A program made the translations under genes and the position numbers. Below, in pieces: positions 22,159-26,777 of a stretch of DNA of 26,899 nucleotides. This DNA is from a virus: positions 1 through 26,899 of the IMG/VR virus record IMGVR_UViG_3300034117_000688; one strand, written 5' to 3'. The notes beneath the pieces are model-generated. The model saw only the letters and a list, made by a program, of their open reading frames with translations, was not told the origin of the DNA and searched no databases. Position 1 is the first letter of the stretch, and every line of letters starts with the position of its first letter.

Positions 22159-22551
22159 CTATTTTATTTTTTGTTTTAACTCATCTAACTCAAATTCCAA
22201 ATCATCAACTCTTTCTACTTGTTCTTTAGTTTCTTCCAAATCTTTAAGCAATTGTTCTTTCTCAAATGCTGATAGAAATCCTTCTTGTCCTTCGGTTTTC
22301 TTTTCTGATGCCATAATCTTAGTTGCGATTGTTGCTAACTTAACCAATTGGTCATCGTTCCTAACTGAACTATCAATTAAACCACCAATTACAGGACCTA
22401 AAGTTCCCATATCACCTGCGTGTCTAACCATTTTCTTTAATTCCTCAATTAGAGCACTAATCTTTGTTTTTTTAGAAACTTGGTTGTTATAGATATCTTC
22501 AAAAAGACCACCTAATGATTTACCTTTGAATAATTCGAATTCTGTTGACAT
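22159..22551 (-). CDS. Coiled-coil protein leading the spike/lysin unit, unknown function
   Basis: The 130-residue protein begins MSTEFELFKGKSLGGLFEDI, has a middle helical region with MGTLGPVIGGLIDSS, and ends in a charged coiled coil (EKEQLLKDLEETKEQVERVD onward). No cysteine, membrane segment or catalytic motif is visible. It is the first gene after the ATATTTATA element at 22578-22586, and the gp5-like gene follows after 1 nt. A structural or assembly role in the baseplate hub is the natural inference. I do not recognise a named family. Confidence 0.68.
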   Translation of the reverse strand: MSTEFELFKGKSLGGLFEDIYNNQVSKKTKISALIEELKKMVRHAGDMGTLGPVIGGLIDSSVRNDDQLVKLATIATKIMASEKKTEGQEGFLSAFEKEQLLKDLEETKEQVERVDDLEFELDELKQKIK

Positions 22552-22607: not shown

Positions 22608-23423
22608 TTAAATTGAGATTACTTCGATTGTAATCTTAGGTTGATATCCTTCAGGCAGTTGTCTATTAATACCTTTGAATTCATTTACTTTACCCTTAAA
22701 GTAAGTTATTTGCAATACCTTATCGGTCAGGTTCATTACAGTTTGAGATGATGTAGACATTTCTTCCGTATCTCTTTTCATATTAAGAGCTGGTTTCTTT
22801 GGAAAGTATTCCTTTCTCATAGCGTGTGCTATTTCTTTCCAATCTTCTATTTTATCAACTGATTTCTCTGCTGATATTTTTCTCAATTGTGAACTTAGAT
22901 ATTTCTCACCGCTTGTGTATCCAGCATCAGTGAACATATGTCCGTGATTTGTACGAACAACAGGTGATTCGGTATTTTGAAGTTTAACATCAGGCTTATG
23001 CTTTGATGTAGTTTCAATACTAACCATATGTTTTGGAGATGATACAAATGTATGACCTTTTAAAGACATCCCACTCTTGCCCTTATATGATAGTGTAGCT
23101 CTTACTGCGGCCATTAGAGTAGGTTGCTTAATGATATTTCTCATCTTATCACCATCAGGACCTGGCTTTCCACCTTTCTTTACAATCTTATGTTCGGCTT
23201 CATCGTGTCCAACTAATAGTGCTGAGTTTACAACACCAATTCCGTTTTCGTTTAAACCCTCACTCCAATCCGTTATTAAATCATGTAGATATGCAACTTC
23301 CACACCATCAATGATAGTATGTACGATTTCTAAAGATGGATTATACGCTCTATCTCTATTTTTAGCTAGGATAAACTTATCTTTAATTTCTTTAGATACA
23401 ATAATACACTCTGAAAGTTTCAT
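22608..23423 (-). CDS. Ntn-hydrolase, C45/choloylglycine-hydrolase-like
   Basis: From the ATG at 23423 the protein has 271 residues and begins MKLSECIIVSKEIKDKF. C6 is the probable N-terminal nucleophile after processing. AKNRDRAYNP (20-29), GLNENGIGVVNSAL (56-69) and VVRTNHGHMF (155-164) match the order NxD, NE-GL-V-N and TNH seen in C45 acyltransferases and penicillin/bile-salt acylases. Such enzymes hydrolyse or transfer an amide-linked acyl group; the substrate here is unknown. An upstream ATG at 23447 would add eight residues and overlap the previous gene by 20 nt. The inner ATG, 4 nt after the previous stop, puts the cysteine near the N-terminus as the family needs. The residues before it, LSE, match the L-x-E rule of T4-type prohead protease. 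The family is likely; the role in the phage is unknown. Confidence 0.72.
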   Translation of the reverse strand: MKLSECIIVSKEIKDKFILAKNRDRAYNPSLEIVHTIIDGVEVAYLHDLITDWSEGLNENGIGVVNSALLVGHDEAEHKIVKKGGKPGPDGDKMRNIIKQPTLMAAVRATLSYKGKSGMSLKGHTFVSSPKHMVSIETTSKHKPDVKLQNTESPVVRTNHGHMFTDAGYTSGEKYLSSQLRKISAEKSVDKIEDWKEIAHAMRKEYFPKKPALNMKRDTEEMSTSSQTVMNLTDKVLQITYFKGKVNEFKGINRQLPEGYQPKITIEVISI

Positions 23424-23427
23424 TTTA

Positions 23428-23985
23428 CTATTCGTTTGTTGATTCAAATAATCTAACAGAAAGAATTACATCTTTACCTATATTTAAATTTCTTACTTTA
23501 TGTCTTTCCAAATCATAAGATGGGTTACCAATTGTATTTGCTTTAGCAACTATACCATTTTTAATAAAGTGTGGTTGTAATCCAGAGTAGTTATCATCTC
23601 TAAACATGAAAACATTATTAGGTAATTCTTTGGATATTTTAATTATCTTCTTCAACCCTTCCTTACCCATAAAACAACCACCTTCGCATTTAGTACCACC
23701 ATAAGTTTTACCTTTTTGTAATGTTACTTCGGTTACTGTACTTTCTCCAAACATCCCTACAAAGTTACCTTGATATTTGTTACCAGGTTTTCCACTTATT
23801 GCTGTTGTGAAATCCATTCTATCTTTTAACTTTCCTTTAGATATAAAGTTAAAAAGTTTTTTAGCATTCAAATTGAAATCATCTATAAATTTTTGTACTG
23901 CAATTCCACGAGTACCAGTAAATCCAGCAATTCCCATTGCTTCTTTACTAGCTGTTTCTTTTAGTATATCTTTTAACTTTATCAT
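23428..23985 (-). CDS. Possible packaged internal protein with capsid-targeting-like leader
   Basis: This 185-residue protein begins MIKLKDILKETASKEA. The first ten residues, ending L-K-E, resemble the T4 capsid-targeting peptide (MKTYQEFIAE), which the prohead protease removes after L/I-x-E. The body is basic with RMDFTTAISGKPGN, a CEGGCFMGKEGLKK element holding the only close cysteine pair, and a basic C-terminal half (DLERHKVRNLNIGKDVILSV). No known enzyme motif is visible. It starts 1 nt after the gene at 23987-24259, which has the same kind of leader, and precedes the Ntn-hydrolase. A head-packaged protein is an inference from the leader only. Confidence 0.62.
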   Translation of the reverse strand: MIKLKDILKETASKEAMGIAGFTGTRGIAVQKFIDDFNLNAKKLFNFISKGKLKDRMDFTTAISGKPGNKYQGNFVGMFGESTVTEVTLQKGKTYGGTKCEGGCFMGKEGLKKIIKISKELPNNVFMFRDDNYSGLQPHFIKNGIVAKANTIGNPSYDLERHKVRNLNIGKDVILSVRLFESTNE

Positions 23986-23986
23986 A

Positions 23987-24259
23987 TTAAAATCCTATTG
24001 AAATTACATCACCATCCGCTTCAACCCAACGAATCTTTAATGCTAATAATTTTTTAAGAGTATCAGCTCCAAAACGATAACCAGTTCCAAAATTGCCTCT
24101 TGCTGGAATATCTACAACCATTCCGTGAATACCGGCAAAAATTTGAGAATGGTCTGCACCAATTACTTTTTGAAATGCCACAACCTGTTTTTGTTGAATA
24201 GGTTTTAATTCTTTGAATTTTACTTCAGATGCTTCGTTTAGTTGAGTAAGTTTTATCAT
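23987..24259 (-). CDS. Small protein with capsid-targeting-like leader
   Basis: The 90-residue protein begins MIKLTQLNEASEVKFKEL. The leader ends in L-N-E followed by Ala-Ser, an excellent fit to the T4 prohead protease rule (L/I-x-E, then a small residue). The mature part would be about 80 residues, with HGMVVDIPARGNFGTGYRFG in the middle and a beta-like end (RWVEADGDVISIGF). No known domain is recognised. It lies in a tight run of genes with MIKL starts (24271-24585 upstream, 23428-23985 downstream). A virion-internal role is plausible but unproven. Confidence 0.6.
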   Translation of the reverse strand: MIKLTQLNEASEVKFKELKPIQQKQVVAFQKVIGADHSQIFAGIHGMVVDIPARGNFGTGYRFGADTLKKLLALKIRWVEADGDVISIGF

Positions 24260-24270
24260 ATTATTTATTA

Positions 24271-24585
24271 TTAAAATGCTCCGTTTAATTCTTTAGCTGC
24301 ATCAGAACCATATTTTGATTTAAATTTATTCATTAAATCTTTTAAAATGTTATCTCTATACTTAGAAATCTCCGATGGCATTGAACCTTCTATTGTATGT
24401 ATTGTTTCTATTGCCTCTAATTTTTTAAAAGACTTTGTATCATTTAAAAATACTGATAATTCCATTACTGCACCAGTATGGTCATTTTTATCAGTTGATT
24501 TAGCTACTCTAGCCACTATTTGTTTAGTATCTAAAGATTCAGTTACTTTAGGTTTTCCAGTTACAATTCCCATTAATTTTATCAT
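24271..24585 (-). CDS. Small protein of the MIKL group, unknown function
   Basis: The 104-residue, mostly helical protein begins MIKLMGIVTGKPKVTESLDT. It shares only the MIKL start with its two downstream neighbours; the nearest E-S site (V-T-E-S) fits the prohead protease rule poorly. The body is charged with a Lys-rich C-terminus (LKDLMNKFKSKYGSDAAK). It follows the membrane protein gene by 1 nt and precedes the next gene by 11 nt, so it belongs to the unit led by the motif at 25254-25262. I do not recognise a family. Confidence 0.58.
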   Translation of the reverse strand: MIKLMGIVTGKPKVTESLDTKQIVARVAKSTDKNDHTGAVMELSVFLNDTKSFKKLEAIETIHTIEGSMPSEISKYRDNILKDLMNKFKSKYGSDAAKELNGAF

Positions 24586-24586
24586 C

Positions 24587-25234
24587 TTATTTCTTTAATT
24601 TAAGTTTCCAATAAACACCACCTCTAACGTATGGAGTAAATCCACCATTTGTACCATCGGTTGTTTGATTAGTAACACCCAAACCTAATTGGTATATCTT
24701 ATCTTTCTTAGTATTGATTAAAACGCCAGCTCCTACTGAACTTACAAAATCTGCTTTGTTGAATCCACCCTCTAAACCATAAAATAATTTAGTCTTAGGT
24801 AATTCTTTTACAATTGTAGTTTCTTTGATAGTTCTTTGCTTAACACTTGCGTTGAAAGTTCTACCTAAGATTTTGTTTTGTGAGATAGTATCATTTAAAG
24901 CAACAATACCTAATGAATCAGGTAAAACTAATGTATCTTTGTATAATACTTTTGAGTAATAGTCTTTTAATAAAGCCATAGTATCAATAACCGCTGGAAT
25001 GATTACTTCTTTCTCTACGATTGTTTCATGGTAGATATCTTCACCTTTCTTAGTTACCACTTTAGTCTTTACAATATCAATAGTATCAATATCGTGCTTA
25101 ATTACTTCATAAGCTTTACCAGCTATGAATACTTTCTTACCTGGCATAACTCCACCTGGGTTAAACCACTCCAATAAAACGAATATAATCAATACTGCGA
25201 TTGCTATATTCTTAAAGTTCAACAATTTTTTCAT
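24587..25234 (-). CDS. Single-span membrane protein with beta-rich C-terminus
   Basis: The 215-residue protein has a short basic start (MKKLLNFKN), a transmembrane segment at about 10-25 (IAIAVLIIFVLLEW) with no signal-peptidase site, and then PGGVMPGKKVFIAGKAYEVI. A long charged segment with many Thr/Val/Ile pairs (about 50-145) follows. The last 70 residues alternate like outer-membrane strands: LFYGLEGGFNK, SVGAGVLINT, YQLGLGVTN and YVRGGVYWKLKLKK. It would sit in the inner membrane with the rest in the periplasm, perhaps touching the outer membrane. I recall similar proteins in marine T4-like phages, all uncharacterised. A spanin-like role at lysis is one hypothesis. It is first in its unit after the motif at 25254-25262. 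Confidence 0.65.
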   Translation of the reverse strand: MKKLLNFKNIAIAVLIIFVLLEWFNPGGVMPGKKVFIAGKAYEVIKHDIDTIDIVKTKVVTKKGEDIYHETIVEKEVIIPAVIDTMALLKDYYSKVLYKDTLVLPDSLGIVALNDTISQNKILGRTFNASVKQRTIKETTIVKELPKTKLFYGLEGGFNKADFVSSVGAGVLINTKKDKIYQLGLGVTNQTTDGTNGGFTPYVRGGVYWKLKLKK

Positions 25235-25271: not shown

Positions 25272-26777
25272 CTAAAATATCATTTTTGAACCAATTTGGA
25301 AGTTATTCAATAAAGAAAACTCAGGTGTGAATGACATTGCCGCTTTATAAGATGTTGAAAATCCAAATCTTTTGCTCAATTTGTAATCATATCCCAACCC
25401 TACCATTGCTCCCGGCGTTCTATTCACAGTACTTCCACCAGTCACCGTATTCCAAGCTAATGGAGATTGCATTAAGAATACTTGTGGAGTTAGGGTAACC
25501 TTTCTATTATAAGTGTAAGGCTTCATCCAAAATCCTACCAAAGATGAACTTAAACTAACATCGTATCCACCGGTCACTGCATTTTGCATCATTAAAGTAA
25601 TCACACCCACATTGTATCCAAATGTTCCGTGTTTAGGATGTGGTTTAATCCAAGTATACCCATTAAGGTTCATTAGCGTTCCTTTAAGATAAGCAAATGT
25701 AGTTCCATATGAATGTATCGCATTTAATTTACCATCCTCAAAATCCATCTTAGTCACCCCAGCACTCAATGCAAATTGGTTTAGGGTACTCCAAATAAGT
25801 GCGGTAGCTGAATATGATTTATCTCCCATTAAAGATGATTTAGATACACCCACACTCATCATTACTGCGTAGTTTCCTTCGTTATCTTCCGTACCTGCTA
25901 AATCACTAGCTAACATCATTGGATTAGCTATTACTTTCTTTTTTTCCTCTTTTTTCTTTTCTTCCTTCTTCTCCTCTTTCTTTTCTTCTTTAGATTCTTC
26001 CTTCTTCTCCTCTTTTTTCTCCTCCGATTTAGATTCCTCTTTCTTTTCTTCTTTGCTTTCCGATTTTGTTTCTTCTTTCTTTTCTTCAGTCTTACTTTCC
26101 GATTTACTCTCCGATTTTGATTCAGATTTGGTTTCAGTTTTAGTCTCCGTTTTGGTTTCAGTCTTTGTTTCTGTAGATGAAGATGAACCACTACCAGAAC
26201 TGCTCCCAGAACCTCCAGAACTACTGCTTCCTGATGAGGAAGCCGGTGGCGGGGTAGAACTACTACTTGATGTTGGTGGAGGGGCTGATGCCGTTGGTGG
26301 AGGTGCCGTTGGTGGTGGTGGAATTGCCGAAGTTGCTGATGAACTAGCTGCCGCACTTGCCGATGAAGATGCAGCCGAACTAGCGGATGAACTTGCCGCT
26401 TTTGCGGCCGCATCTGCCGCTGCCTTCGCTGCTGCATCGGCTGCTGCCTGCGCCGCTGCTGCAGCCGCTGCCGCTGCCGCTTGTGATACTGTGTTTTGTA
26501 CCGTTTGTTGAACTACCACATTCGTAGGACATGCCATTGCATTGAAAGCTGCGTAAGTTGCAGCAATCCAAACATTTACAGCTCCCGCCATTACTTCTAT
26601 TGGTGAGAATACTCTGACCTGATTATAAAATGATACCGTTGCAAACCCATTGGTCATTGTTGTAGTGGCAATCTTAATTTCACCAGTACACTTGTCCTTA
26701 TAAGTTTGTGTATAAGTTTGCCCGCTTACGATTTGACAAAACAATACTAAAATAAAACCTAATATATATTTCTTCAT
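25272..26777 (-). CDS. Secreted low-complexity stalk protein with beta-barrel-like C-terminus
   Basis: The 501-residue protein has a Sec signal peptide (MKKYILGFILVLFCQIVSG, cleavage before Q20). A small N-terminal domain with two cysteines (C32 and C83) spans about 20-95. An Ala-rich helix follows (95-150), then a Ser/Pro/Gly stretch (150-205), Thr-Glu-Lys and Ser-Glu-Lys repeats, and a Lys/Glu-rich rod to about 285. Residues 287-501 look like outer-membrane beta-strands (YNVGVITLMMQNAVTGGYDV, GAMVGLGYDYKLSKRFGFST), ending in MIF with a terminal Phe as barrel proteins often do. A signal peptide plus barrel is unusual for a phage. It may remodel the host surface, block superinfection or act at lysis. 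No family is recognised for the N-terminal domain. Its start overlaps the stop of a second barrel-like gene. Confidence 0.7.
   Translation of the reverse strand: MKKYILGFILVLFCQIVSGQTYTQTYKDKCTGEIKIATTTMTNGFATVSFYNQVRVFSPIEVMAGAVNVWIAATYAAFNAMACPTNVVVQQTVQNTVSQAAAAAAAAAAQAAADAAAKAAADAAAKAASSSASSAASSSASAAASSSATSAIPPPPTAPPPTASAPPPTSSSSSTPPPASSSGSSSSGGSGSSSGSGSSSSTETKTETKTETKTETKSESKSESKSESKTEEKKEETKSESKEEKKEESKSEEKKEEKKEESKEEKKEEKKEEKKKEEKKKVIANPMMLASDLAGTEDNEGNYAVMMSVGVSKSSLMGDKSYSATALIWSTLNQFALSAGVTKMDFEDGKLNAIHSYGTTFAYLKGTLMNLNGYTWIKPHPKHGTFGYNVGVITLMMQNAVTGGYDVSLSSSLVGFWMKPYTYNRKVTLTPQVFLMQSPLAWNTVTGGSTVNRTPGAMVGLGYDYKLSKRFGFSTSYKAAMSFTPEFSLLNNFQIGSKMIF
25934..25991 (+). repeat. 58-nt uninterrupted polypyrimidine tract (plus strand)
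   Basis: From 25934 to 25991 the plus strand has only C and T, and pyrimidine-rich runs with few interruptions continue to about 26160. The coding (minus) strand is therefore polypurine, encoding the Lys/Glu rod with AAG, AAA and GAA codons. It could form triplex or be prone to slippage. Confidence 0.8.

Follow-up and report, generated by a model that had tools for sequence, protein, structure and literature searches.

A run of small viral genes whose products begin with the same four residues raises the question of whether these proteins are loaded into the phage head, and of how an enzyme-like gene at the end of the run is related to them. The window, the whole 26,899-nucleotide stretch analysed here (IMG/VR record IMGVR_UViG_3300034117_000688), carries three MIKL-start genes and the enzyme-like gene at 22608-24585, all in tandem on the minus strand. 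Their features, with the flanking downstream gene, are given below; throughout, a slash marks a predicted cut, and G006 is a 288-kb relative.

22159..22551, minus strand: downstream conserved gene, 130 aa, coiled coil; it heads the following baseplate run and is syntenic with the hydrolase gene in G006
22608..23423, minus strand: predicted Ntn (AAT/choloylglycine-hydrolase-type) amide hydrolase precursor, 271 aa, from the fold model and a homologue's Pfam match
23406..23408, minus strand: Cys6 codon, predicted N-terminal nucleophile, invariant in a 43-sequence alignment and placed by the Ntn fold
23409..23423, minus strand: predicted propeptide MKLSE, cut before Cys6, from junction counts in 130 homologues
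23428..23985, minus strand: leader-bearing two-module protein, 185 aa; the modules are separate in relatives
23728..23736, minus strand: candidate internal protease site V84-T85-E86, between the two modules; in the homologue alignment, E86 alone reaches 90% conservation
23956..23985, minus strand: predicted 10-residue capsid-targeting leader MIKLKDILKE, cut before T11, from the leader pattern
23987..24259, minus strand: small protein of 90 aa with a leader; its mature part is a homologue of the C-terminal domain encoded by the gene directly after the S77 protease gene in G006
24233..24259, minus strand: predicted leader MIKLTQLNE, cut before ASE, from the same [LIV]-x-E/A junction across the family
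24271..24585, minus strand: leader-bearing small protein, 104 aa (MIKLMGIVTGKPKVTE/SLD..); the start reads MIKLMGIVTGKPKVTESLD..
24538..24585, minus strand: predicted long capsid-targeting leader, residues 1-16, with a V-T-E end, from relatives' sites and from V at P3 in capsid-protein sites

A mobile leader in a variable cassette

The three adjacent MIKL starts described in the initial annotation were confirmed. Among the 24 genes of the window, ~0.07 such starts would be expected from position-specific frequencies in G006 (P ~5e-5 by chance). The leader ends L-N-E/A and L-K-E/T are likewise present where they had been placed, the 23987-24259 protein starting MIKLTQLNE/ASEVKF.. and the 23428-23985 protein MIKLKDILKE/TASKEA.. 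The proposed L/I-x-E rule holds for these two proteins, whereas the third has V-T-E instead. This 104-aa protein possesses no L/I-x-E near residue 10 and has a longer leader, MIKLMGIVTGKPKV-T-E, with V-T-E at 16; its relatives carry V-N-E or V-S-E at that place, and one reads MIKLMGIVSE/G. In PHROGs and Pfam the 104-aa protein was without a match above noise, and sequence searches of PHROGs, Pfam and the PDB returned nothing useful for the small MIKL proteins. No relatives of the three were found in the named phages searched.

The genomic setting was extended by a 55-kb contig, G013, which shares 20 kb with the window at 99.995% identity and a further 3.5 kb at 98.4%. Past the window end, it carries genes for the terminase and portal, for an S77 prohead protease, and for scaffold-like and gp23-type capsid proteins. 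The protease gene (47563-48159, S77 E 6e-28) is of the gp21 type and, since this contig is almost identical to the window, the species has such a protease, the homologue that the initial annotation had proposed to look for. Most relatives have S77 too (20 of 23 records). The relatives' form is a stand-alone protein of 200 aa; in the isolated phage MA9V-1 (OR050627.1, 126501-130544) the S77 domain lies inside a 1347-aa protein. The baseplate protein of the window is related to those of Microcystis phage Mel-JY01 (41%) and Flavobacterium phages (immuto, 39%); judging by the named relatives, the host is probably a member of the Bacteroidota.

A search for further leader-bearing proteins, also suggested at the outset, revealed more of them in relatives. 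The fetched loci yielded 31 different leaders that fit MIKLxx[IL][LIV]xE, and the MIKL leader occurs on ~18 unrelated protein families, defined as clusters built on the mature part after the leader. These include a HAD-like sequence (recognised by eye). In G006, a hydrophobic-x-E with E at positions 9-11 is present in 9 of 11 proteins with MIxL starts versus 25 of 384 others (P = 4e-9). In the fetched loci, 68 of 88 MIKL starts carry the site versus none of 44 MKKL starts, many of these being homologues and the counts hence not independent. L/I-x-E by itself falls within the first 14 residues of ~17% of G006 proteins, so the short motif alone is common; the signal is the entire leader together with its conservation. 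Matches to a position-specific matrix (57 of 2605 at starts versus 7 of 6862 internal) are partly circular, the matrix having been trained on start sequences, and the untrained counts are taken as the evidence instead. Leader codons vary while the residues stay constant. Together, the leader sequences describe a real, mobile N-terminal module that enters and leaves the variable cassette at this locus.

The suggested match to the T4 capsid-targeting sequence stood in its layout and failed in its letters. In T4, residues 4 and 7 of this sequence target and residues 8 and 10 serve processing (PMC9026906). In the leaders described here, the L at position 4 belongs to the search pattern, position 7 is I or L, position 8 is mostly L, I or V and position 10 mostly E, whereas the T4 sequence itself reads MKTYQEFIAE/A. 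A leader of T4-like form, MKTFTCFINE/A, is encoded beside the protease gene of MA9V-1.

Mel-JY01 encodes three paralogues (L161:10276-12715) in which MIKL leaders are followed by ISDRVWH[LV]T; an ADP-ribosyltransferase identity was suspected by eye and gained no support from searches. A very large head-cassette protein, encoded just upstream of the terminase in G013 (38295-41348; L273:18295 into L274) and G006 (L281:6643-11148), possesses a T4-like leader (MNELSNFLRE / MSTLSTFLAE), a CTP_transf_like (nucleotidyltransferase) domain and DUF5661.

Modular relationships were seen for the 90-aa and 185-aa proteins. In G006, the gene directly after S77 encodes a C-terminal part homologous to the mature domain of the 90-aa protein, joined at STLNE/ASEISF; across the 90-aa family, [LIV]xE precedes A at this junction, behind short leaders and long extensions alike. 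The 185-aa protein consists of two modules, found separately in relatives and joined at V-T-E86. Its AlphaFold model is poor (pLDDT 59) and indicates, at low confidence, two domains and a disordered linker. The motif ES[VI][NS]E occurs 9 times in G006 against 0.4 expected; 8 of the 9 occurrences lie in three proteins whose genes adjoin the protease gene or belong to the cargo cluster, and we infer that these motifs could be internal protease sites.

Close relatives differ in which leader-bearing genes they carry at the window locus, and the flanking genes are constant. The constant upstream flank comprises genes for a membrane-anchored protein with an N-terminal anchor (24587-25234) and a secreted-looking, low-complexity protein that is Ala/Ser-rich and then Glu/Lys-rich (25272-26777). 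Variable gene content is expected of accessory cargo and not of essential parts. It therefore counts against the possibility, which we hold at rather less than even, that the leader-bearing proteins are structural parts of the head core or scaffold whose leader serves assembly, with no injected effectors among them. The presence of enzyme-like leader-bearing proteins (the HAD-like and CTP_transf_like examples) also speaks against such a role. It gains weight from the homologues of the 90-aa and 185-aa proteins, which directly follow the prohead protease in G006, from the clustering of ESVNE-type sites in cassette proteins adjoining the protease, and from gp24 of T4, a shell protein bearing the same kind of leader. 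Some of the leader-bearing proteins may indeed be head-core components and not effectors.

A predicted hydrolase precursor with a putative cut site before its cysteine

The fourth gene of the locus lacks the MIKL leader pattern and starts with a short extension. It was left uninterpreted in the initial annotation, yet of the four genes it offers the best evidence for cleavage. The TTG start given by the ORF lister was rejected because there are homologues with frames that open directly at MKL; the ATG at 23423-23421 is therefore the true start, giving MKLSE/C. The homologue in MA9V-1, a Chryseobacterium phage, is 45% identical and starts MTSANNNEFLNE/C. An AlphaFold model of the 22608-23423 protein (pLDDT 83, pTM 0.85) was compared with known structures using Foldseek, which placed isopenicillin-N acyltransferase best (E 7.5e-9), followed by bile salt hydrolase, penicillin V acylase and TANGO2, with identities to the solved structures of ~10-14% only. 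Pfam AAT (PF03417) aligned to the MA9V-1 homologue at 1.2e-4 and 22.3 bits, just under the cut-off of 23.2; for the window protein itself, Pfam, PHROGs and PDB sequence searches gave no useful match. A genome scan for cellular homologues found none. The protein is thus predicted to be an Ntn hydrolase of the AAT/bile-salt-hydrolase fold and, as a best guess from the fold, its substrate would be an N-acyl amide. In a viral protein of 944 aa (BFVD A0A1B1IVH7), the hydrolase domain (36% identity, TM 0.90) lies inside a much longer chain.

Ntn hydrolases of this kind require a cysteine at the N-terminus. The residues that precede Cys were compared in 130 distinct homologues: [LI]xE was found in 120, VxE in three, the start Met in seven and any other arrangement in none. 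The first set (n = 102 distinct) had yielded 95 with [LI]xE and seven with Met, and the 28 additional homologues of a later scan all fitted the rule, three with V at P3; one further homologue, missed by the pattern (L343), reads INE/C. On the tree, P1 Glu changes zero times and P3 only between L and I, while P2 changes at least 31 times. A fixed P1, L or I at P3 and a free P2 point to a protease site and not to shared ancestry alone. In one relative (G005), the hydrolase gene (MAKLLNE/C) lies between the protease gene and the scaffold and capsid genes. The propeptide is 4-5 residues long in most members and hence too short for a full 10-residue targeting sequence. The seven Met-Cys hydrolases need no protease, although S77 is present in all three of their phages examined; activation by a protease is therefore not universal.

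Many Ntn hydrolases, penicillin V acylase among them, are known to process themselves, and the hydrolase might likewise remove its own propeptide, [LI]xE before the Cys being a structural need of that reaction and unrelated to the head protease. The members with just Met-Cys fit this explanation as well. It leaves unaccounted for, however, the P1 Glu shared by all 123 extended members, with L/I/V at P3 and a free P2, a pattern that matches the published gp21 rule, L/I-x-E (PMC9026906). The predicted disorder of the propeptide and the position of the hydrolase gene inside the G005 head cassette also argue against self-cleavage, which we consider unlikely.

The head protease and a proposed route of delivery

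Evidence for the cut rule of this group comes from its capsid proteins. The gp23-type capsid protein of G013 has a conserved QLLDE/A, and those of relatives a conserved QL[LIV][SD]E/A (QIVSE in immuto), where T4 gp23 has LTE/A. These sites suggest a rule that includes V at P3. Nothing specific favours a host or other phage Glu-specific protease that cuts the leaders outside the head, beyond the fact that sequence alone names no protease; as the phage encodes S77 itself and its capsid protein keeps to the same cut rule, we regard this as very unlikely. That MIKL starts are an effect of translation initiation or composition, with L-x-E due to chance, is hardly credible: A-rich starts are common in these genomes and L/I-x-E occurs in ~17% of N-termini, yet the equally A-rich MKKL starts carry no site, the pattern reaches positions 7, 8 and 10 with varying codons, and the 90-aa family retains [LIV]xE/A at the same junction within longer proteins.

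From the leaders, the modularity, the protease and capsid genes, the cut-ready Cys and the predicted Ntn fold, we infer packaging, cleavage, activation and injection in the following order. MIKLxx[IL]LxE leaders would act like T4 capsid-targeting sequences, carrying unrelated proteins into the prohead core, where the S77 prohead protease would trim them after [LIV]-x-E. The Ntn hydrolase would be made as an inactive precursor, MKLSE-Cys; cleavage by S77 after Glu5 would free Cys6 as the N-terminal nucleophile and switch the enzyme on inside the head. The matured proteins would then enter the next host with the DNA and act early. In T4, the protease is active only in the finished prohead (PMC9958956). 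Taken jointly, these steps and the reading of the locus as a cassette in which a T4-like (gp23/S77) phage keeps its cargo genes form an explanation that we consider likely. The more specific proposal, that S77 both activates a packaged Ntn hydrolase zymogen, which would turn on only within a finished prohead, and cuts multi-module cargo at ES[VI]NE-type linkers into small individual proteins, appears somewhat more likely than not.

The internal proteins of T4 have the leader alone in common and block type IV restriction enzymes (PMC12373910); by this precedent, an anti-defence role of the MIKL proteins is plausible. A literature search found no virion proteomics for these phages, and in the open-licence literature no paper linking an Ntn hydrolase to a prohead protease was found. 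Both the hydrolase and the protease are encoded by the isolated phages MA9V-1 and MA9V-2.

The internal proteins of T4 are few and are recognised through one leader. The present loci would extend the T4-type logic, with another leader and many more cargo families, to widespread environmental phages. As the leader logic applies to many families, lists of candidate packaged proteins can be drawn up from sequence. Should the head protease activate the hydrolase, enzyme activation would be tied to particle maturation, and the phage would hold the enzyme silent in the producing cell.

Comparison with known systems

The closest parallel is with IPI, IPII and IPIII of T4, in which a short N-terminal leader with an L/I-x-E cut rule precedes otherwise unrelated small proteins. 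The leader positions 4, 7, 8 and 10, a gene set that varies between relatives and an S77 protease in the same phage are also shared. The 16-residue predicted leader of the 104-aa protein parallels the 19-residue leader of T4 IPI (MKTFKEFTSTTTPVSTITE/A). In contrast to the T4 proteins, the leader here is MIKLxx[IL]LxE and not MKTYQEFIAE, and the putative cargo families are many more. Of the T4 leaders compared (IPII and IPIII, MKTYQEFIAE/A; gp24, MAKINELLRE/S), the gp24 propeptide is nearest to the MIKL leaders; gp24, however, is a capsid vertex protein and not internal cargo.

DarB of phage P1 also shares N-terminal capsid targeting, for which its first 30 residues are sufficient, and acts in defence against restriction (PMC9024508); phage and sequence are unrelated to those described here.

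The hydrolase resembles the AAT, choloylglycine hydrolase and penicillin V acylase group of Ntn enzymes in its predicted fold and its invariant, N-terminal-type Cys. Known Ntn members expose this Cys by removal of Met, by removal of a signal peptide or by autoprocessing, whereas here the Cys is preceded by a putative head-protease site.
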